Of a DNA stretch of 7,758 nt, positions 1-7,144 are shown piece by piece (within the stretch, counting starts at the first letter, position 1; each line of letters begins with the position of its first letter). The stretch spans positions 1-7,758 of the forward strand of contig JAKAMV010000465.1 in the NCBI GenBank assembly GCA_021812735.1, read 5' to 3'. Made by a program: the position numbers and the translations under genes. A model generated the notes under the pieces. That model made no database searches and was not told where the DNA came from. It saw only the letters and a list, made by a program, of their open reading frames with translations. Source of the stretch: Chloroflexota bacterium (GTDB lineage Bacteria > Chloroflexota > Limnocylindria > Limnocylindrales > CSP1-4).

Positions 1-1586
1 ACGCTCGGGACGCTCGAGCCGCCCGGTAGCCCGCCGGCCTGCGCCAGCTGGCCGCCGCCGGGGCCGAACCCCGCGTCCCGCCCGGCCGAGGGGCCGGCCG
101 ACGGATCGCCGCCCGAGTAGGCGGTCTGGACGGTGTCCACCGCGTACGCCGCCGGGCCGGCCAGCAGCATCGCCAGCCCGAGGCCGGCGGCGGCGACCTG
201 GAGGCCGCGGACTCGAGGAGTCTCGCGCAGGGCGAGCACCGGCACGATGAGGGCCGTCACCGCCAGCACCGTGAGCCCCAGCCCGGGCGCGAACGACGGC
301 GTGCGGTCGAGCAGGGTGAGCGCCACGCCTGCCGAGCCGACCATGGCCAGACCGAGCAGGAGGCCCGCCCAGCTGTACCGCTCGCGGGCCCGCCACAGGA
401 CGACGACGCCGCCCCCGACGAGGGCGCCGACCGCGGGCGCCATGGACACCACGTAGTAGCTGTGGATGGTGCCGGACATGAGGCTGTACACGAGCGCGTT
501 GACGGCCAGCCACAGCCCCCACATGAGGTACGCGGCCCGGGCGAGGTCGGTGCGCGGAGCCCGGGCGCGGGCGACGAGGCCGGCGACGAGGCCGACCGCG
601 GACAGGGGCAGGAACCAGCCGATCTGTCCACCGAGCTCGGTGTTGAACAGGCGCAGGATCCCGGGGGTGCCCGAGAAGTTGCCGCCGTTGCCCTGGCCGC
701 CTCCGACGCTCCCGCCGAAGACCCTGGCGAGCCCGTCATAGCCGAGGACCAGGTTGAGCGCGGTCCCGTTGGCGGAGCCGCCCACGAAGGCCCGGGAGGA
801 CGCGGGCAGCAGAGTCATTGGGATCACCCACCAGGCCGAGGCCACCGCCACGGACGCTGCCGCGACCGCGAGCCCGACGAGGCGGCGGCGCCACGAGCCG
901 CGGCCGGCGATGGCGTAGGTGAGCGCGAAGGCGGGCAGGACCAGGAACCCCTGGAGGAGCTTGGTCTCGAAGGCCAGGCCCGTGAGCACGCCCGCGAGCG
1001 CAAGCCAGCGGAGGCGGTCGGTCTCGAGGGCGCGGACCAGGGCGTAGGCGCCGGCGGCGAACAGCAGGGTGAGCAGCGCGTCGGGGTTGTTGTAGCGGAA
1101 GATCAGGACGGCAGCCGGCGTCAGGGCGGTCACCAGCCCGGCGATGATCGAGGCCGGCGCGCCGAACGTGCGGCGCACGGTCGCCATGACCAGGCCCACG
1201 GTCGCCACGCCCATGAGGGCCTCGGGGAGCAGGATCGAGGCCGAGGACAGGCCGAACAGCCGGACGGACAGGCCCATCACCATGGTCGCCAGGGGCGGCT
1301 TGTCGACGGTGATGAAGTTGGCCGGGTCGACCGAGCCCATGAACCACGCGGTCCACGACTGGCTCGCCGCCCAGGCGGCACCGCTGTAGAAGACGTTGGC
1401 GTACCCGCTCACCGTGAGGTTGACGAGGTAGAGCACGGCGGAGAGGGCCATGACACCAGCCGTTGCGGGCAGGGCCCAGGCGGCGTCGATGGCGCGATCG
1501 CGGGCGATCAGGCGGCGGAGGCTGCCCGGCACGGAGGGCGCCCCGGATCGGCGGCGGTCGGTGCTGGGCGGGGCGATGGAGGTCAT
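1..1586 (-). CDS. GT39/PMT_2-type polytopic membrane glycosyltransferase (YkcB/ArnT-like), C-terminus cut by the window edge
   Basis: About 528 residues are visible and the frame is open to the left edge. Family enzymes move a sugar from a polyprenyl-phosphate donor to an acceptor on the outer face of the membrane. An acidic lumenal-type motif with DKPPLA is at residues 95-100, after DPANF at 87-91. RYNNPDALL is at 164-172, FETKLLQGF at 206-214, a Gly-rich loop ending LFNTELGGQ at about 291-321, and HSYYVVSMAPA at 375-385. Many hydrophobic segments lie between them. The C-terminal part becomes Gly/Ser-rich near the edge; YkcB-like proteins usually continue for another 100-200 residues. The ATG at 1586 is chosen because AGGAG lies 7 nt upstream, inside the last codons of the GtrA gene, whose stop is only 4 nt away. 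This implies translational coupling. The family call is firm. Acceptor (protein, lipid or wall polymer) and sugar cannot be read from the sequence. Confidence 0.92.
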   Translation of the reverse strand, partial: MTSIAPPSTDRRRSGAPSVPGSLRRLIARDRAIDAAWALPATAGVMALSAVLYLVNLTVSGYANVFYSGAAWAASQSWTAWFMGSVDPANFITVDKPPLATMVMGLSVRLFGLSSASILLPEALMGVATVGLVMATVRRTFGAPASIIAGLVTALTPAAVLIFRYNNPDALLTLLFAAGAYALVRALETDRLRWLALAGVLTGLAFETKLLQGFLVLPAFALTYAIAGRGSWRRRLVGLAVAAASVAVASAWWVIPMTLLPASSRAFVGGSANGTALNLVLGYDGLARVFGGSVGGGQGNGGNFSGTPGILRLFNTELGGQIGWFLPLSAVGLVAGLVARARAPRTDLARAAYLMWGLWLAVNALVYSLMSGTIHSYYVVSMAPAVGALVGGGVVVLWRARERYSWAGLLLGLAMVGSAGVALTLLDRTPSFAPGLGLTVLAVTALIVPVLALRETPRVRGLQVAAAGLGLAMLLAGPAAYAVDTVQTAYSGGDPSAGPSAGRDAGFGPGGGQLAQAGGLPGGSSVPS

Positions 1587-1590
1587 GGCG

Positions 1591-2148
1591 TCACTCCTGG
1601 GCGCTGGGCGATGGGGAGGCGGGGACGAGGGCCCGCTGGTGGTCGGCGGCGATCCAGCTCCGGAGCAGGACGAACCGCGCGACGGTGGCGAGCGCGTTGG
1701 CGATGACGAGGACGGCCAGCTCCACGAGGTGGCCGGCGTGCGGTGCAATCGCGCCCAGCACGTTGACGGACGCCGTGGTGATGGCGAGGGCGACCGCGAG
1801 GGCGATGAGGCCGCCCGCCTGGTCGCGCAGCATGGACCGGCCGTCGCGGACGCCGAACGTGAGTCGGCGGTTCGCAGCGGTGTTGCCGACCGCGGTCAGG
1901 ACCAGTGCCGCCGCGTTCGCGGTCGCGGGGCCGGTCGCGGTGCGCAGGACCAGATAGAGGACGGCGTACGCGGCCGTGCTGACGACGCCGATCGCCCCGA
2001 AGACGACGATCTCGCGGCCGAGCCGGCTGGCGACGAGGTGACGGAGGCTGGCCGGGCGGCCGTCAAGGCGCGTGGTTGACGCCTCGGCGGCCGGCCGATG
2101 GGGAGCGGACGCCAGCGCTCGGCCGGCGCCGCTGTGCAGGGTGGTCAT
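1591..2148 (-). CDS. GtrA-like four-helix membrane protein (polyprenyl-phosphate sugar flippase type)
   Basis: This 185-residue protein has a hydrophilic N-terminal 45 residues and then four hydrophobic segments at about 47-69, 75-95, 113-134 and 140-163. VFGAIGVVSTAAYAVLY and the GNTAANRRLTFG motif (residues 88-99) are the GtrA family signature. Members are thought to flip or assist flipping of undecaprenyl-phosphate-linked sugars, supplying a lipid-linked donor on the outer face. That fits the GT39 enzyme immediately downstream, whose Shine-Dalgarno sequence lies in this gene's last codons. The ATG at 2148 has no Shine-Dalgarno sequence. It overlaps (TGATG) the stop of a possible 27-codon leader ORF starting at 2231, so it may be translated by reinitiation. 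The conserved domain starts near residue 45, so the exact start is less certain than the family. Confidence 0.88.
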   Translation of the reverse strand: MTTLHSGAGRALASAPHRPAAEASTTRLDGRPASLRHLVASRLGREIVVFGAIGVVSTAAYAVLYLVLRTATGPATANAAALVLTAVGNTAANRRLTFGVRDGRSMLRDQAGGLIALAVALAITTASVNVLGAIAPHAGHLVELAVLVIANALATVARFVLLRSWIAADHQRALVPASPSPSAQE

Positions 2149-2231
2149 CAGGCGCGGCCCGACACCACGTCGCCGTGGCGGCCGGTCTGCGGCCCGGGCG
2201 GGGTCGGGGTGGTGTCGAAGTGCGTGTCCAT
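2148..2231 (-). CDS. possible leaderless 27-codon leader ORF overlapping the GtrA start
   Basis: An ATG at 2231 opens 27 codons (starting MDTHFDTTP, Pro/Thr/Gly-rich, no hydrophobic stretch). They end in a TGA whose A is the A of the GtrA ATG. The ATG lies 6 nt after a GAGATT -10 box that sits at a fixed distance from the shared regulator site. Transcription would therefore begin at or next to this ATG, giving a leaderless message. With no Shine-Dalgarno in front of GtrA, translating this ORF would deliver ribosomes to the GtrA start. It could instead be a non-functional leader, or the true N-terminus of GtrA if there is a single-base frame error in the overlap. I see no recognisable domain. 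Confidence 0.35.
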   Translation of the reverse strand: MDTHFDTTPTPPGPQTGRHGDVVSGRA

Positions 2232-2237
2232 GACGCG

Positions 2238-2271
2238 AATCTCGGGCACCGCCCCTTTCGAACCCGTTACA
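2238..2271 (-). promoter_or_regulatory. OmpR-type tandem site and -10 box of the GtrA/GT39 operon (site A)
   Basis: Reading the minus strand, GTAAC (2270-2266), 6 bp, GAAAG (2259-2255), 11 bp, GAGATT (2243-2238). The two half-sites start 11 bp apart, as OmpR/PhoB-family dimers require. They cover the -35 region, the class II activator position. The ATG at 2231 follows the -10 box by 6 nt. The same layout recurs at 5523-5556 and 7111-7144. Confidence 0.65.
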
Positions 2272-2276
2272 CGGGT
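2262..2276. promoter_or_regulatory. perfect dyad ACCCGT-TAC-ACGGGT, possible extra operator
   Basis: A perfect inverted repeat with 6-bp arms and a 3-bp centre overlaps the distal half-site of site A and lies between the divergent starts at 2231 and 2308. The other two copies of the shared promoter lack it, so it is not part of the common element. It could be the operator of a separate dimeric regulator acting on either direction. A chance occurrence in GC-rich DNA is also possible. Confidence 0.3.
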
Positions 2277-2295
2277 CGCGCAGGACGAGATGGCC

Positions 2296-2301
2296 TACGA
2301 T
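2296..2301 (+). promoter_or_regulatory. candidate -10 box TACGAT for a leaderless plus-strand transcript
   Basis: TACGAT matches TANNNT and ends 6 nt before the ATG at 2308, the same spacing seen at other starts in this window. I see no good -35 hexamer 16-18 bp upstream, so this may be a weak or activator-dependent promoter. It favours the ATG at 2308, although the in-frame ATG at 2290, preceded by AGGACGAG, is an alternative start. Confidence 0.45.
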
Positions 2302-2307
2302 CGGGCC

Positions 2308-2922
2308 ATGGACCGCAGGGCCGCCATCGCTGCCGTCCGCCTCGGGTTCGCCGGACTCGCCTGCCTTGCCATCGCGGCTCAGCTCGTCGACCTGGCCATC
2401 GCGGGCACCCTCAACCCCGTCGACTTCGTGTCGTCCCTCAGGATCCAGAGCAGCCTGATCGCCGTGATCGTGCTCGGGACGGCCGCGGCCAGCTGGCGAC
2501 GGGGCGGCGGGGCGAGCATCGACCTTCTGCGCGGCGCGGCCACCGTCTACGTGGCGGTCGCCGCCGTGGTCTTCCCGCTGCTGTTCGGCCCCGACCCCGA
2601 CCCGGGCATCGCCTGGGCGGATGTGGTGCTCCGCGGCGTGCTCCCCGCGGCCGTGATCGCCGACTGGCTCGCGGTCCCCCCGCTGACGGGGATCTCCTTC
2701 CGCCGGTCGCTCGCCTGGTTCGCCTACCCCGTGCTCTGGGTCAGCTTCACGATGCTCCGCGGGCCGGCGGTCGGCTGGTATCCGGTCCCGGCCCTGGACC
2801 CGGCCGGGGGCGGCGACGTCATGGTTGCCGCCTCCGTTGCGGCGATCTTCGTGTCCAGCTTCGCGATGTGCCTGATGGTGTCAGCGCTCAGCCGGCGGCC
2901 GCGCTGGCGATCCTCAGCCCGC
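2308..2922 (+). CDS. probable Pr6Pr-family membrane protein without a stop codon at its expected end
   Basis: About 205 codons look like a complete member of the Pr6Pr (FAR-17a/AIG1-like) membrane family, whose function is unknown. There is an N-terminal helix, then NPVDFVSSLRIQSSLIAV (36-53; family pattern NP..FFSYFTIQSN), LLRGAATVYVAV (73-84), DWLAVPP (119-125) and RGPAVGWYPVPALDP (151-165), then a last helix to about residue 194. The usual His before the DWL segment appears replaced by Arg109. The frame does not stop where the family normally ends. It stays open to 4569, antisense to the kinase and part of the regulator gene. A one-base shift in the last codons would reach TAG at 2924-2926 or TGA at 2940-2942. 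The end given is simply where the opposing kinase gene begins. Either the frame carries a frameshift or sequencing error, or the stop has been lost. The start is discussed with the -10 box at 2296. Confidence 0.6.
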
Positions 2923-4194
2923 TTAGCCGCGTCCCCAGCTGACGGTGAACCGGGCGCCTCCGGCGGGCGAGGTGCCGATCCCCCACCGGCCACCCGTCGC
3001 GTGCACGATCGCGTCTCCGATGGCGAGCCCCAGCCCCGCGCCCCCGGTCTCGGCGGCCGTGGCCACCGACCTGTGGAAGCGGTCGAAGATCCGCGCCCGC
3101 TCCTCCTCGGGGATCCCGGGGCCGGTGTCGTCAACCGCCACGAAGGCGCGCCCGGACTCCACGCCCACGGTCACGTCCACGGCCCCGCCGTCGGGCGAGT
3201 ACTTGCAGGCGTTGTCGACCAGCACGCCGACCAGGCGGTCGACCAGCTCCGCGGATGCGGCGATGACGACGGGCCGGGGCGGCGCGTGGACGGCCAGCTG
3301 AAGGTGGCGGGTCTCGGCGACCGCGCTGAACCGGTCGACCGCCTGGCTCGCCAGCACCCCGAGGTCGATCGGGCCGTCGGCGGGGGAATCGCCCGCGGCA
3401 TCGAACCGCGCCAGCCACAGCATGTCCTCGAGCAGCTTCCGCATCCGCTTGGATTCGCGGTCGACCTTGGTGAAGGCGTTCCGGTACCAGTCGGCATCGC
3501 GATCCCCTGCCAGGGCGAGCGAGGTGTGGGCCTCGATGACCGAGAGCGGCGTCCGGAGCTCGTGCGAGGCGTCCGCGGTGAACTCGAGCTGGCGGCGCCG
3601 GGACGCCTCGATGGGCTCGGCGACGCGCTGGCCCACGATGGTGGCGCCAACGAACACGAAGCCGAGCAGGAACGGCGCGATCAGCAGGATGCCCAGGATG
3701 ATCGTCTGCTGGGTGTCCGCGACCTGCTGCGTCTCCTGCGCGACGACGACGCGCACCGAGCCCATCTGCTCGCCGGCGATGCGGACACTGGTCCCGTCGA
3801 TCGTGGCGTCCTGGGGGCTGGTGACCGTCGTGAGGTCGGCGGGGAGCGCGGGCGTCTGGTTGCCGATCGCGGTCACGGTGCCGTCCGCTGCCACCGTCCA
3901 GATCAGGGTCGGCGGCCCGAACGGGCGGCCGGGGTCGCGGCCCAGGTTCGGCGATCCGTCCCCGGCCGCGCTCCCCGTGTTGTCGCCGGTGCCGCCGCCC
4001 GGGACCTGGCCGCCGGGCGGCACGCGGCCGAAGGTCTGCATGAGCCGCTGGTCGATCTGCGAGGTCAGGTCGCGGGTGGCGAACGCCACGACGCCCGCGG
4101 CGATCGCGACGTACACGACGGCCACCACCCCGGTCGCGGCGAGCGCGACCCGGATGGACTGGCGGCGGACTGCCGGCACGTGGGCCATGGTCAT
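2923..4194 (-). CDS. two-component sensor histidine kinase (OmpR-partner type)
   Basis: A 423-residue membrane sensor kinase. TM1 is at about 17-39. An outside domain of about 125 residues follows, with a Gly/Pro-rich stretch at 57-95 and a short folded part from about 96 (IWTVAADGTVTAIGN). TM2 is at about 165-187. Only about 17 residues separate TM2 from the dimerisation helix, too few for a full HAMP domain. The H-box is FTADASHELRTPL with phospho-accepting His211. The ATPase domain has NACKYS (N-box, Asn328), DTGPGI (356-361), FDRFHR (370-375) and GAGLGLAI (385-392). All catalytic motifs are intact. Its ATG overlaps the regulator's stop (ATGA), so the pair is translationally coupled. The signal is unknown. 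Operon position behind a haem-type redox protein makes a redox or metal-related cue a reasonable inference only. Confidence 0.95.
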   Translation of the reverse strand: MTMAHVPAVRRQSIRVALAATGVVAVVYVAIAAGVVAFATRDLTSQIDQRLMQTFGRVPPGGQVPGGGTGDNTGSAAGDGSPNLGRDPGRPFGPPTLIWTVAADGTVTAIGNQTPALPADLTTVTSPQDATIDGTSVRIAGEQMGSVRVVVAQETQQVADTQQTIILGILLIAPFLLGFVFVGATIVGQRVAEPIEASRRRQLEFTADASHELRTPLSVIEAHTSLALAGDRDADWYRNAFTKVDRESKRMRKLLEDMLWLARFDAAGDSPADGPIDLGVLASQAVDRFSAVAETRHLQLAVHAPPRPVVIAASAELVDRLVGVLVDNACKYSPDGGAVDVTVGVESGRAFVAVDDTGPGIPEEERARIFDRFHRSVATAAETGGAGLGLAIGDAIVHATGGRWGIGTSPAGGARFTVSWGRG

Positions 4195-4859
4195 CCGGCT
4201 TCGAGCCGGTACCCGGAGCCGCGGACCGTCACGACGCGCACGCCGGCGTCGGGCAGCTTGGACCGGAGGCGCGACATCTGGACGTCGATCGCGTTGGACC
4301 CGAGGGGGTCGGTCTCGTCGGCCCAGGCGTGCTCGGCGATCGCCTTGCGGTCCACCACCGACGGCGACCGGCGCAGCAGCAGCTCGAGGATCCGGTACTC
4401 CGTGGCGGTCAGCGCGGTCTCACGGCCGTCGACCCGGACCACGTGGGTGACCGGATCGAGGGACAGTCGCCCGGCGCGCAGCACCGGCTGGTCAACGCCG
4501 CGCGGGCGGCGTTGCAGCGCCCGCACGCGGGCGAGCAGCTCGCCGAAGTCGAACGGCTTGACCAGGTAGTCGTCGGCGCCCGTGTCGAGACCGCGGATGC
4601 GGTCCGCGGGCGTGTCGCGGGCGGTGAGCATCAGCAGCGCGGTGGGCCGCTCGTGGCGGCGCGCCCACGCGACGACATCGATCCCCTCGGCGCCGGGCAT
4701 GCGCCAGTCGATGACGGCGACGTCGTACTCGTACCACTTGAGCTGGTCGATGGCGTCGTCACCGCGGTCGACGGCATCCACGTGGTAGCCGGCGTCGGTG
4801 AGGCCGAGGACGAGGACGTCACGGAGCCCCTCGTCGTCCTCCGCCACCAGCACGCGCAT
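4191..4859 (-). CDS. OmpR/PhoB-family DNA-binding response regulator
   Basis: The 222-residue length is normal for the family. The receiver domain (1-118) has the acidic pair Asp8/Asp9, phospho-acceptor Asp51 (VIDWRMPG), Thr79 (MLTARD) and Lys101 (LVKPF). The C-terminal winged helix (about 125-222) has TATEYRILELLL, the recognition-helix segment SNAIDVQMSRLRSKL and the terminal VRGSGYRLE hairpin. GGAG lies 8 nt upstream of the ATG. The gene sits 27 nt after the ferric-reductase-like gene and overlaps the kinase start, so all three should share one mRNA. It is the natural candidate to bind the three tandem GTNAY-N6-GAAAG sites here. One of those lies in front of its own operon, which predicts positive autoregulation. 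Confidence 0.96.
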   Translation of the reverse strand: MRVLVAEDDEGLRDVLVLGLTDAGYHVDAVDRGDDAIDQLKWYEYDVAVIDWRMPGAEGIDVVAWARRHERPTALLMLTARDTPADRIRGLDTGADDYLVKPFDFGELLARVRALQRRPRGVDQPVLRAGRLSLDPVTHVVRVDGRETALTATEYRILELLLRRSPSVVDRKAIAEHAWADETDPLGSNAIDVQMSRLRSKLPDAGVRVVTVRGSGYRLEAG

Positions 4860-4886
4860 CAGCGTCGCTCCCTCGCTCCTCGCGGG

Positions 4887-5447
4887 TCAGCGGGCGAGCG
4901 CCCGCGGCCCGAGCACCATCGTCGCACCCCGGTCGACCCACCGCCACGTCGCCGCGCCGGCGACGATCGCGAGCGTGAGCGCCTCGATGCCCAGCATCCA
5001 AGGCGCCATGGCGTCGCTTCCGGCCGTGAGGGTGTGCGCGAAGGCGAGCGGCCACATCAGGTAGGCCGTCCAGTGGACCAGCCGCCACGCGCGCTGGCCG
5101 AGGCGCTGCCGGAGCAGGCTGGTGGCGATCAGCGCGACGACGAGGTACAGCGAGATGACGCCGAGCGCCACCGGCACCGGCTTCCAGGACGAGGCGAAGG
5201 GCACCAGCGCGGCGGCCAGCCCGAGCTTCAGGTACGGGTCCATGATCGCGGCCAGGACGTGCACGGCGAGGAACGCCGTGGACAGCAGCGAGATGCGGCG
5301 GTGCATCTCGTAGTTGAAGAACCGGGGCCAGCCCGCGGCCTGGAAGCGGGTGACCGTGATCAGCCCGAAGGCGGCGCTCGCGGTGAGCATCAGCAGGGAG
5401 ACGATCCCTGCCCCTCGGGCCGCGAACCACAAGATCTGATCGGACAT
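4887..5447 (-). CDS. ferric-reductase-like transmembrane protein (b-type haem, four-His core)
   Basis: A 186-residue integral membrane protein with hydrophobic segments at about 8-32, 50-68, 92-112, 121-140 and 150-168. Four histidines fall in two helices: His49 (EMHRR) and His63 (AVHVL), 14 apart, and His125 (LVHWTAY) and His138 (FAHTL), 13 apart. This is the bis-His spacing for two stacked b haems in ferric-reductase, NADPH-oxidase and MsrQ-like domains. It lacks the soluble FAD/NAD domain of full ferric reductases, so electrons must come from or go to another protein, plausibly a flavinylated one given the ApbE gene upstream. AGAGGAG sits 5 nt before the ATG and fixes the start. It is the first gene of an operon with the regulator and kinase. 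Substrate and electron donor are unknown. Confidence 0.88.
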   Translation of the reverse strand: MSDQILWFAARGAGIVSLLMLTASAAFGLITVTRFQAAGWPRFFNYEMHRRISLLSTAFLAVHVLAAIMDPYLKLGLAAALVPFASSWKPVPVALGVISLYLVVALIATSLLRQRLGQRAWRLVHWTAYLMWPLAFAHTLTAGSDAMAPWMLGIEALTLAIVAGAATWRWVDRGATMVLGPRALAR

Positions 5448-5468
5448 GTGTGCTCCTCTGGTGAGCTG

Positions 5469-5504
5469 GCGGCGGCGGGCAGGGGGGGTGAGACCCGCCG
5501 CCGC
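5469..5504 (-). promoter_or_regulatory. 11-bp all-GC hairpin in the 5' leader of the redox/two-component operon
   Basis: GCGGCGGCGGG and CCCGCCGCCGC form a perfect 11-bp stem around a 14-nt loop. In the mRNA the loop carries a C-run (a G-run on the plus strand). From the predicted start near 5516 it begins about 12 nt into the transcript. It ends 9 nt before the AGAGGAG ribosome site, which it leaves free. No U-tract follows, so it is not a standard terminator. It may stabilise the message or act as a regulatory structure. Confidence 0.5.
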
Positions 5505-5522
5505 GGGGTGTTCGTGGGCGGG

Positions 5523-5556
5523 AGTGTCGAGGGGACAACCTTTCGGCGCGGTTACA
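5523..5556 (-). promoter_or_regulatory. OmpR-type tandem site and -10 box of the ferric-reductase/regulator/kinase operon (site B)
   Basis: Minus strand: GTAAC (5555-5551), 6 bp, GAAAG (5544-5540), 11 bp, GACACT (5528-5523). Spacing is identical to sites A and C. Transcription should start near 5516, leaving a leader of about 70 nt that holds the 5469-5504 hairpin and a normal ribosome site. Unlike the other two, this transcript is not leaderless. It predicts autoregulation of the two-component system. Confidence 0.68.
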
Positions 5557-5599
5557 GGTCCGGTCGGGGCGCAGCTGCTGGCCGACTCTGTGGCGTGGA

Positions 5600-5788
5600 T
5601 TGGCCCCTGAGGCCAACCTCCTGGCACCAGTGGGTCGGATGTTGGCGGCAGAGGCCGAGATGCGACCGACCGTGGGGCTCGCGGACCCAGGATCGCGTCG
5701 GAAGTTGGCTCGGGAGGCGAAGGCTCGAACGCTGGGGGCCGAAACCATGGCACGGGAGGCCAATGACGATATCGTCGGCGGGTCGGAA
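5600..5788. repeat. degenerate 21-bp tandem repeat array (about nine units)
   Basis: Units start every 21 bp at 5600, 5621, 5642, 5663, 5684, 5705, 5726, 5747 and 5768. Four are well preserved (5600, 5642, 5705, 5747) and share TGGCnnnnGAGGC(C/G)RA. The others keep only some positions. In the nine units, column 5 is C, column 10 is G and columns 12 and 13 are G in eight of nine each. Read in the plus frame the unit is a heptad of the type LAxEAxx. The frame has no convincing start and runs into the antisense of apbE, so I do not call it a gene. Twenty-one base pairs is two helical turns, so the conserved positions face the same side of the DNA. The first unit also holds the inverted repeat TTGGCC-cctga-GGCCAA (5600-5616). 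Confidence 0.6.
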
Positions 5789-5802
5789 CATCGGCGTGCC
5801 GC

Positions 5803-6816
5803 TCAGCGGCGGGCCCGCGGTTCTTCGGTCGCGGAGGCGGCACCGGCCGGGGCTTCGCCGGAATCGGCGCGAGACGGCTCGTCGTCGGGCGTGCCTTGCT
5901 CCGGCTCCGGCCAGCCCCCGACGCGGACGACCGACCCGTCCTGGGCCACGAGCCGAGCGGGCAGCCGGGCCGACGCCAGCCAGTCGAGGGCCGCGGGGCC
6001 GAGGACGATGCACGCGGTGGAGGCCGTATTCGCCGCCTCGCACGTCGCCGCGACCACCGTCGCCGTCCGCCATGGCGTGTCGGCGGGCAGGCCGGTCCGG
6101 GGGTCGACGATGTGGTGCACGGTGGTGCCGTCCGACGACGACCACCTCCGCACGGTGGTCGTCGAGGTGGCCAGCCCGCCCCGCTCGATCGAGATCACCT
6201 CGCCGGGCCCGTCCGGGTCCGCCCGGCTGTCCTCGGCGACCAGGATGCGCCATCCTCCCTCGGGCGCCCTGCCGGCCACCGCGACGTCGCCGCCCAGGCT
6301 CACGAGCACGCCGGCGCCGGCGCCCCCCGCCTCGAGCGCGACCGCGGCGCACAGGTCGGACGCGAGGCCCTTGCCGGTGGAGCCCAAATCGAGCTCCACG
6401 TCAGTCGGGATGCGGACGGTGCCGGCCGCCGCGTCGAACGCGATCACCGACCAGCCGGGCACCGGGGCCACCTTGAGCACCAACGGACGGGTGCTCCCGG
6501 CGATCTGCTCGAAGTCGTCGTCGTAGCCGGTCACGCGCAGCGCACGGCCCACGGTGGGGTCGACAGCACCGCCGGTCGCCCGGGCCGCCTCGAGCGAGCC
6601 GGCGAGCGCGCGGGCCAGCAGGGGCGACACGCGCACCTGCCTCCCCCGCGCCGAGTTGAGGGCCACGAGCTCGGAGTCCGGGCGGAACCGGGAGTAGGCG
6701 AGATCGACCTCACTGAGCACCCGCTCCACCGCCGCGCGAGCGGCCGCGAGGTCACCGTCGTTCACGACGAGCCGGACGCCGGTGCCGATCGCTTGCCAGT
6801 CGGCGGTGGCGAGCAC
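5803..6816 (-). CDS. apbE: ApbE-family FAD:protein FMN transferase
   Basis: A 337-residue ApbE protein. Family enzymes cut FAD and attach FMN through a phosphoester to a Ser/Thr of a membrane or exported redox protein. Motifs in order are SRFRPDSEL (42-50), DPTVG (86-90), DLGSTGKGLASD (143-154), SLGGDVAV (173-180), HHIVDPRTG (234-242) and NTASTACIVLG (263-273). The Asp of the usual metal-binding AD...T motif is Asn263, while Thr267 is kept. No signal peptide or lipobox precedes the domain, which starts at about residue 6, so this copy may act in the cytoplasm. The last 35 residues are an acidic, low-complexity tail. The start is GTG at 6816, 2 nt after the upstream stop with no good ribosome site, which implies coupling to the 94-residue gene. 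A short GC-only palindrome covers the stop (5798-5810). Confidence 0.93.
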   Translation of the reverse strand: MLATADWQAIGTGVRLVVNDGDLAAARAAVERVLSEVDLAYSRFRPDSELVALNSARGRQVRVSPLLARALAGSLEAARATGGAVDPTVGRALRVTGYDDDFEQIAGSTRPLVLKVAPVPGWSVIAFDAAAGTVRIPTDVELDLGSTGKGLASDLCAAVALEAGGAGAGVLVSLGGDVAVAGRAPEGGWRILVAEDSRADPDGPGEVISIERGGLATSTTTVRRWSSSDGTTVHHIVDPRTGLPADTPWRTATVVAATCEAANTASTACIVLGPAALDWLASARLPARLVAQDGSVVRVGGWPEPEQGTPDDEPSRADSGEAPAGAASATEEPRARR

Positions 6817-6818
6817 GA

Positions 6819-7103
6819 TCAGGAGCCCCCAGACGAGGCGTGGCCGAAGCCCGAGCCGGCGGTCACGACGGGGGCGCTCGTGGCGGCGGTCGTCGTGGTG
6901 GCGGCCGAGGACGAGACGGTCCCCGTCGTGGAGACCGTCGTGGTGTAGGCGGTCGTGGCGGCGGTGCCGGTGTACGTCGCCGCGGCCAGGAAGCCGAAGC
7001 CGCTGACGGCGGCCACGCTCAGGGCGGCGGTCCCGATCGTCATCTTGCGCAGCCGGGCGAGGTTTCGGGATCGCGCCTCGCGGGCCGTGTCGGTTGTGTT
7101 CAT
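6819..7103 (-). CDS. unrecognised 94-residue single-pass membrane protein with Thr/Ser-rich tail
   Basis: I do not recognise a family. A basic N-terminus (residues 1-20, RSRNLARLRK) precedes one membrane helix at about 22-43 (MTIGTAALSVAAVSGFGF). Positive-inside logic then puts the rest outside. From residue 43 onward about half of the residues are Thr or Ser (TTTVSTTGT, SSSAATTTT), ending in GFGHASSGGS. In comparable gene sets a FMN_bind protein, the ApbE acceptor, often stands at this position. Here neither that domain nor an SGA(S/T) flavinylation motif is visible. The tail could be an O-glycosylation target, a flexible stalk or a non-canonical flavin acceptor. The ATG at 7103 lies 7 nt after a GACCAT -10 box, so the mRNA is probably leaderless. 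ApbE follows after 2 nt. Coding status is supported by this promoter geometry, the clean membrane topology and the close coupling. Confidence 0.7.
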   Translation of the reverse strand: MNTTDTAREARSRNLARLRKMTIGTAALSVAAVSGFGFLAAATYTGTAATTAYTTTVSTTGTVSSSAATTTTAATSAPVVTAGSGFGHASSGGS

Positions 7104-7110
7104 GGCACGG

Positions 7111-7144
7111 ATGGTCGGGGTCGAACCCTTTCAGCCCGATGACA
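7111..7144 (-). promoter_or_regulatory. OmpR-type tandem site and -10 box of the small-protein/apbE unit (site C)
   Basis: Minus strand: GTCAT (7143-7139), 6 bp, GAAAG (7132-7128), 11 bp, GACCAT (7116-7111), then 7 nt to the ATG at 7103. The distal half-site differs at two positions from sites A and B. The flanking T before it and G after GAAAG are shared by all three. The spacing predicts a leaderless transcript starting at or next to the ATG. Confidence 0.66.

Follow-up and report, generated by a model that had tools for sequence, protein, structure and literature searches.

A predicted OmpR-family operator-promoter of a new regulon, with a corrected consensus

The window analysed here, a whole stretch of 7,758 nucleotides, carries three copies of an element with the consensus GT(A/C)A(C/T)-N5-(C/T)-G(A/C)(A/C)AG-N11-nANNNT, and comparison with relatives indicates that it is a real promoter element whose two spacers are both held. 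Judged from sequence, we take it to be the operator-promoter of a new regulon under an OmpR-family regulator. We consider it highly likely that the two-component system with genes at positions 2923-4859 (Table 1) governs this small regulon, and the three operons of the window very probably stand under its common control as a set of redox and glycosylation genes acting at the cell surface.

Table 1. Positions of the element copies, their parts and the surrounding genes in the window.
Feature	Position	Strand	Basis or remark
Site 1	2238-2270 (33 bases)	minus	pattern match
Site 1 half-site 1, GTAAC	2266..2270	minus	pattern match
Site 1 half-site 2, GAAAG	2255..2259	minus	pattern match and GAAAG count
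Site 1 -10-like box, GAGATT	2238..2243	minus	pattern match
Site 2	5523-5555 (33 bases)	minus	pattern match
Site 2 half-site 1, GTAAC	5551..5555	minus	pattern match
Site 2 half-site 2, GAAAG	5540..5544	minus	pattern match and GAAAG count
Site 2 -10-like box, GACACT	5523..5528	minus	pattern match
Site 3	7111-7143 (33 bases)	minus	pattern match
Site 3 half-site 1, GTCAT	7139..7143	minus	would lie at about -39/-35, taking the start codon as transcript start
Site 3 half-site 2, GAAAG	7128..7132	minus	pattern match and GAAAG count
Site 3 -10-like box, GACCAT	7111..7116	minus	pattern match
GT-C glycosyltransferase (PF13231, GT39-like)	3..1586	minus	domain search; cut by window end
GtrA-type membrane protein (PF04138)	1591..2148	minus	domain search
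Possible 27-aa leaderless leader ORF	2148..2231	minus	ATG 2231
Histidine kinase (HisKA, HATPase_c)	2923..4194	minus	domain search; adjoins regulator gene
OmpR-family response regulator (putative reader of the sites)	4191..4859	minus	domains and alignment
Ferric-reductase-like (MsrQ-like) membrane protein (PF01794)	4887..5447	minus	domain search
ApbE flavin transferase (PF02424)	5803..6816	minus	domain search; by eye without signal peptide
94-aa protein, C-terminal HASSGGS	6819..7103	minus	ORF and family comparison

An earlier note on this DNA had described three minus-strand copies of GTNAY-N6-GAAAG-N11-GANNNT in which the spacers measure exactly 6 and 11 bp, and this is borne out, with the full pattern found three times in the whole window, always on the minus strand and with both spacers exact, and not once in 200 shuffles of its sequence. 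The starts given for the sites were correct, whilst their ends had been set one base too far. Its remark that GAAAG/CTTTC is confined to the sites also holds, the three occurrences on both strands of the window (2.15 expected) all lying within them. As the pattern had been picked after the fact, an unbiased within-window test was run as well, in which the best ungapped three-way 34-mer match among the three 150-nt upstream regions showed 16 identical columns, compared with 12 to 15 in 60 Markov-1 shuffles. By itself this test lends modest support, and it is the relatives that settle the question.

Loci were fetched by the OmpR-type regulator protein alone, and the best 80 of 231 stretches encoding a relative were combined with the window to give a conservation set of 81 sequences (1.06 Mb). 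The titles of these 80 loci are mostly Chloroflexi bacterium or Candidatus Dormiibacterota, with the closest regulator relatives 85-94% identical and the few named ones belonging to Chloroflexota or Candidatus Limnocylindrales. Across this set we counted 108 half-site pairs, where a Markov-1 model predicts 5.5, and 47 copies of the full pattern, where none were expected; 106 of the 108 strict pairs lie on the strand of the regulator. The nANNNT box follows 11 nt beyond the half-sites in 95 of 106 sites selected without requiring it (A 92%, T 91%), flank positions -15 to -2 are flat (no more than 0.09 bit), and positions that had not been selected for are also kept, namely a pyrimidine before GTNAY, C/T before GAAAG, and G after GAAAG. 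A 34-column matrix at a threshold of at least 13 bits picks out 140 sites on the strand of the regulator as opposed to 5 on the other, and its reversed form picks out none in the same set; having been trained on the strict sites, the matrix recovers these by construction, and 35 of the 140 lie outside the strict form, mostly as GACAG or GCAAG variants. The conservation of half-sites and of the 6 and 11 bp spacers upstream in relatives, a check proposed at the outset, is therefore seen in this best-80 set, with at least one site present in 76 of the 81 sequences and absent from five.

A less circular test required only GTMAY, nANNNT and a start codon, leaving half-site 2 free, and in the same 81 sequences it matched 83 times on the strand of the regulator and 5 times on the other. 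In 82 of these 83 the free half-site reads G(A/C)(A/C)AG (GAAAG 68, GACAG 9, GCAAG 5), with GAAAC, GAAAT and GAAAA each found in none of them. The matrix sites also correct the earlier description of the bases around the half-sites: the shared G after half-site 2 is retained in 110 of 140, whilst the supposed T before half-site 1 is more often C (C 93, T 39, G 8 of 140), and the 3' box given as GANNNT gives way to the general form nANNNT, its first base being G in 67, C in 54, A in 12 and T in 7 of 140.

With the initial G of GTNAY numbered 0, the -10 box occupies +27 to +32, and 87 of 139 sites of the best 80 loci and the window have a start codon at offset +39, +40 or +41 (ATG in 43, 23 and 11 sites, respectively, and GTG at +39 in 10, with an ATG background of 1.49 per offset further on). 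The box is thus placed ~12 bp before the start codon, as in leaderless promoters, and many of the target genes look leaderless. Bacterial leaderless genes carry TANNNT at about this distance from the start, according to an excerpt of PMC3160421. The initial T of that housekeeping form is rare here, with T at -12 in 7 of 140 sites (binomial p ~1e-4 for its avoidance against background), whereas elsewhere in the loci, measured against the mean of five widely scattered control triplets, xANNNT-N6-7-ATG is enriched 2.6-fold when x is T and 1.3- to 1.6-fold when it is another base. Because T is avoided at its first base, the -10 box is read as that of a weak promoter in need of an activator. If the transcript begins at the start codon, the half-sites would lie at -39/-35 and -28/-24. 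Site 3 is probably leaderless for the 94-aa gene, the ATG of which lies at +40 from it, whilst a transcript from site 2 would have a leader of ~69 nt. At site 1, ATG 2231 opens the possible leader ORF, the stop of which overlaps the GtrA start (TGATG); in two relatives (L001 and L003) the ATG at the corresponding place starts GtrA itself.

The rigid spacing from GTAAC to the -10 box and to the start codon would also suit a promoter read by an alternative sigma factor of the ECF type, with GTAAC serving as the -35 and the remainder as spacer. We regard this as extremely improbable, as the 22 bp between GTNAY and nANNNT exceed the usual -35/-10 spacers, which are shorter, GMMAG between them is strongly conserved, the A at -11 and T at -7 match housekeeping -10 boxes, and no sigma domain was found in the nine window proteins scanned. 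An ECF-sigma promoter was set aside as unlikely on spacing.

In a test of the region upstream of each orthologue, run as the earlier note had suggested and wherever sequence sufficed in the best 80 of 231 loci and the window, the element lies upstream of GtrA in 22 of 28, of ApbE in 13 of 14, of the ferric-reductase gene in 8 of 16, of the regulator gene itself in 28 of 76, and of GT39 in 3 of 29, with opposite-strand controls of 0, 1, 0, 0 and 0, respectively; before the kinase gene it was found in 0 of 66 (control 0). For GtrA the search interval was extended to as much as 150 nt beyond the estimated start once the first result was known, the first count having been only 9 of 28 because the search interval ended too early for relatives with shorter N-termini. 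The ferric-reductase gene comes after ApbE in L067 and L072, for example, and the element tends to precede first genes and not internal ones, as expected of promoters. Other genes preceded by it in relatives include HlyD-type, YceI, glycosyltransferase 2 and PrsW genes, and some genes in the loci are unlabelled on account of the crude Python gene caller. A divergent Pr6Pr-family membrane protein (NCBIfam NF038065) is encoded in the window at 2308-2943 on the plus strand, its end overlapping the end of the kinase gene. In L108 and L109, an ORF of ~230 to 340 aa follows the ferric-reductase-like gene and may be an electron-donating partner.

The OmpR-family regulator said to be encoded between the sites is indeed present, with Response_reg and Trans_reg_C domains and a phospho-acceptor Asp. 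D51, T79 and K101 are identical in all 77 aligned sequences, window included, and the recognition-helix region GSNAIDVQ-SRLR is largely invariant in the same 77. The nearest solved chain to the regulator is BasR/PmrA, 8jo2 being an RNA polymerase complex. PmrA binds tandem half-sites head to tail, as described in part of PMC3973317. The sites themselves, with two tandem half-sites ~11 bp apart beside the -10 box, have the layout of OmpR-family activators that had been attributed to them.

Scans of the relatives' whole genomes, using the form GTMAY-N5-YGAAAG-N12-ANNNT (GAAAG only), link the element to this regulator in two classes of Chloroflexota-type genomes, which by their labels are Limnocylindrales and Dormibacterota, the class names beyond the labels being our inference. 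In the class of G001, 62 of 177 genomes hold matches (117 sites, compared with 5 in 4 genomes for the reversed control). The regulator, called at 74% identity or more and in some cases partial, was found in 50 of the 177, with a site in 48 of these 50 genomes versus 14 of the 127 others, and with 101 of the 117 sites in regulator-bearing genomes. In the class of G006, 47 of 110 genomes hold matches (150 sites; reversed control 5 in 5 genomes), and the regulator, called at ~70% identity or more and again partial in some, was found in 43, with a site in 35 of these versus 12 of the 67 others. Fisher values of 5e-28 and 4e-11 for the two classes are overstated, as genomes sharing descent are not independent. 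Regulator-bearing genomes without a site of the strict GAAAG form number 2 of 50 and 8 of 43. The genome scan proposed in the earlier note, run here on relatives, thus finds sites that track the regulator, and its claim that the three units form one regulon of the local regulator is supported by both the orthologue upstream sites and this regulator-linked presence in two classes. Three genomes of the class of G006 (G187, G189 and G245) hold 8 to 10 sites each, and there the regulon looks larger.

These scans also bear on who owns the sites. Some other global regulator common to both classes and encoded elsewhere could own them, with the two-component system merely one target, and 45 of the 101 sites in regulator-bearing genomes of the class of G001 have no regulator gene within 8 kb (contig breaks included), whilst sites without a close regulator occur in the 14 of 127 and 12 of 67 genomes noted above. 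However, matching genomes of that class hold only 1 to 4 sites, more than half of those in regulator-bearing genomes (56 of 101) lie no more than 8 kb from the regulator gene, the 11-bp tandem layout fits the OmpR family, and the DNA-reading helix of the local regulator is largely invariant, leaving a separate global owner unlikely. Among the 12 genomes, G201 has a 63% relative of the regulator, and some sites without a regulator stand ahead of regulon genes (before ApbE in L101, before GtrA in L102), suggesting incomplete bins. Five genomes with no close regulator (G132, G139, G143, G145 and G158) share near-identical GTCACCGTCTCGAAAGACAG matches, which may be an unrelated conserved sequence.

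A GlnR-type nitrogen regulator is a further potential owner, as the Streptomyces coelicolor GlnR box gTnAc-n6-GaAAc, as given in parts of PMC3087709 and PMC10704036, has the same half-site 1 and 6-bp spacer, and 8 of 18 site-bearing genomes show weak GlnR_1st matches below cut-off. Against this, GlnR_1st (PF21695) passes its cut-off in 0 of the 18 (bins may be incomplete, and 0 of 14 control genomes passed either), the target genes identified include no nitrogen-assimilation gene, the presence of the element follows the local regulator, and the GlnR-type b-site GAAAC is not among the 83 free half-sites. Ownership by GlnR is very unlikely; the candidate was rejected on the absence of any domain over cut-off in the 18 genomes, a search with no positive control, and of GAAAC.

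Our preferred reading, in which the local two-component system owns the sites, would work as follows. The kinase would phosphorylate D51 of the regulator, and a regulator dimer would bind GTMAY and GMMAG head to tail at ~-39/-35 and -28/-24, replacing the -35 box and contacting RNA polymerase to activate the weak -10. We infer that it is the local regulator that binds the half-sites, and activation, as opposed to repression, is deduced solely from where the sites lie and from the weakness of the -10. Activation would extend together to GtrA and the GT39-like glycosyltransferase (unit 1), to the ferric-reductase-like protein, regulator and kinase (unit 2, and so positive autoregulation), and to the 94-aa tethered protein with ApbE (unit 3), the likely output being a redox module of the envelope that carries covalently bound flavin, together with glycosylation of the envelope.

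The 94-aa protein has a basic N-terminus, one hydrophobic segment, a Thr/Ser/Ala linker and the C-terminal HASSGGS. Searches for its family gave 39 and 100 matches, in which the basic N-terminus and hydrophobic segment are conserved, the hypervariable linker, rich in Thr, Ser, Ala or Pro, does not align, and 107 of 110 distinct proteins end in [ST]GGS, followed by no more than 2 further residues. The ApbE motif is D-x-x-[S/T]-G-A-[S/T], and flavin attachment to tags worked best at a protein N or C terminus, according to portions of PMC12052999. The family tag departs from this motif, being mostly H/Q-x-x-[S/T]-G-G-S with D and A replaced, and keeps its seven-residue spacing. In the loci, 26 rows of tagged ORFs, 7 of them duplicates, leave 19 distinct ones (the pattern missed L098), and apbE directly follows in 15 of the 19; in the others, an apbE frame with an in-frame TAG follows (L004), the tagged ORF reaches the contig end (L017) or precedes GtrA (L007), or it overlaps the apbE frame and is probably spurious (L101). 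Whilst apbE is present in all 16 genomes tested, an FMN_bind domain was not found in 12 of the 16, nor NQR2/RnfD over cut-off in 13 of the 16, and in G028, G029 and G166 the single apbE match lies at the 94-aa-protein locus, with neither substrate domain found; this search covered FMN_bind and NQR2/RnfD, the known ApbE substrates also including DUF2271, DUF3570, flavodoxin-like and reductase types, and was made on bins that may be incomplete.

With its C-terminal [ST]GGS and its gene beside apbE, the 94-aa protein is a candidate minimal flavinylation substrate, a flavin-carrying tether. Against the flavin reading, the positive-inside rule predicts an outward-facing tag, whereas the window ApbE starts directly with its catalytic domain and shows no signal peptide by eye, and the tag lacks the D and A of the motif. 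We tentatively propose, as a possibility somewhat below even, a new covalent flavoprotein with a one-helix membrane anchor and a disordered Thr/Ser-rich tether, in which the neighbouring ApbE would place FMN on the Ser of the C-terminal H-x-[ST]-[ST]-G-G-S, electrons would come from the ferric-reductase-like haem protein, and the GtrA/GT39 pair would perhaps decorate the tether. If true, this would be a natural flavin-tag on a flexible arm, replacing a folded FMN-binding domain. Short leaderless ORFs also occur at site 1, of 27 aa in the window, 29 aa ending AASSGGS in L005 and 28 aa ending GQGGS in L102, and L007 carries a full 143-aa tagged protein at the same place; the short ORFs may be what remains of a second tethered protein.

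For two classes represented here by metagenome bins only, the analysis thus yields a regulon that can be tested, together with its operator and likely activator. It connects a haem protein of the membrane with a flavin transferase and with glycosylation of the envelope, and it brings forward a candidate for a new type of protein that carries flavin. The marker sequence is rare (1 to 10 matches in genomes having any) and so usable for finding further members. Literature searches on Limnocylindr- with response regulators and promoters, and on Limnocylindr- with ApbE, found nothing, and the papers listed for GTAAC/GAAAG response-regulator direct repeats include none on these bacteria.

Amongst known systems, the AfsQ1 site, GTnAC-n6-GTnAC, has half-site 1 and the spacer as here, with GTnAC as half-site 2 in place of GMMAG. 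RppA and CztR/CopR are the closest named regulator families by score (NCBIfam), and the local regulator falls below both cut-offs (189 of 250 bits and 182 of 279 bits, respectively). The PmrA/BasR box, of CTTAAG type with half-sites 5 bp apart, shares the head-to-tail tandem and 11-bp period, however other bases are read and the regulon is another. The closest DNA motif found in print appears to be the actinobacterial GlnR box (the sections of PMC3087709 and PMC10704036 cited above), which shares half-site 1, the 6-bp spacer, the GAAA that begins half-site 2 and an OmpR-family reader. In contrast to the GlnR box, which ends in C, the element here ends in G and is fused to a -10 at 11 bp, its proposed regulator keeps the phosphorylation residues, and its targets differ. 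At the level of gene content, the MsrQ-like flavinylation clusters described in part of PMC8238504 combine a PF01794 haem protein with ApbE, as here; those clusters typically include an FMN-binding-domain protein, whereas here it is the 94-aa tethered protein that stands beside apbE.
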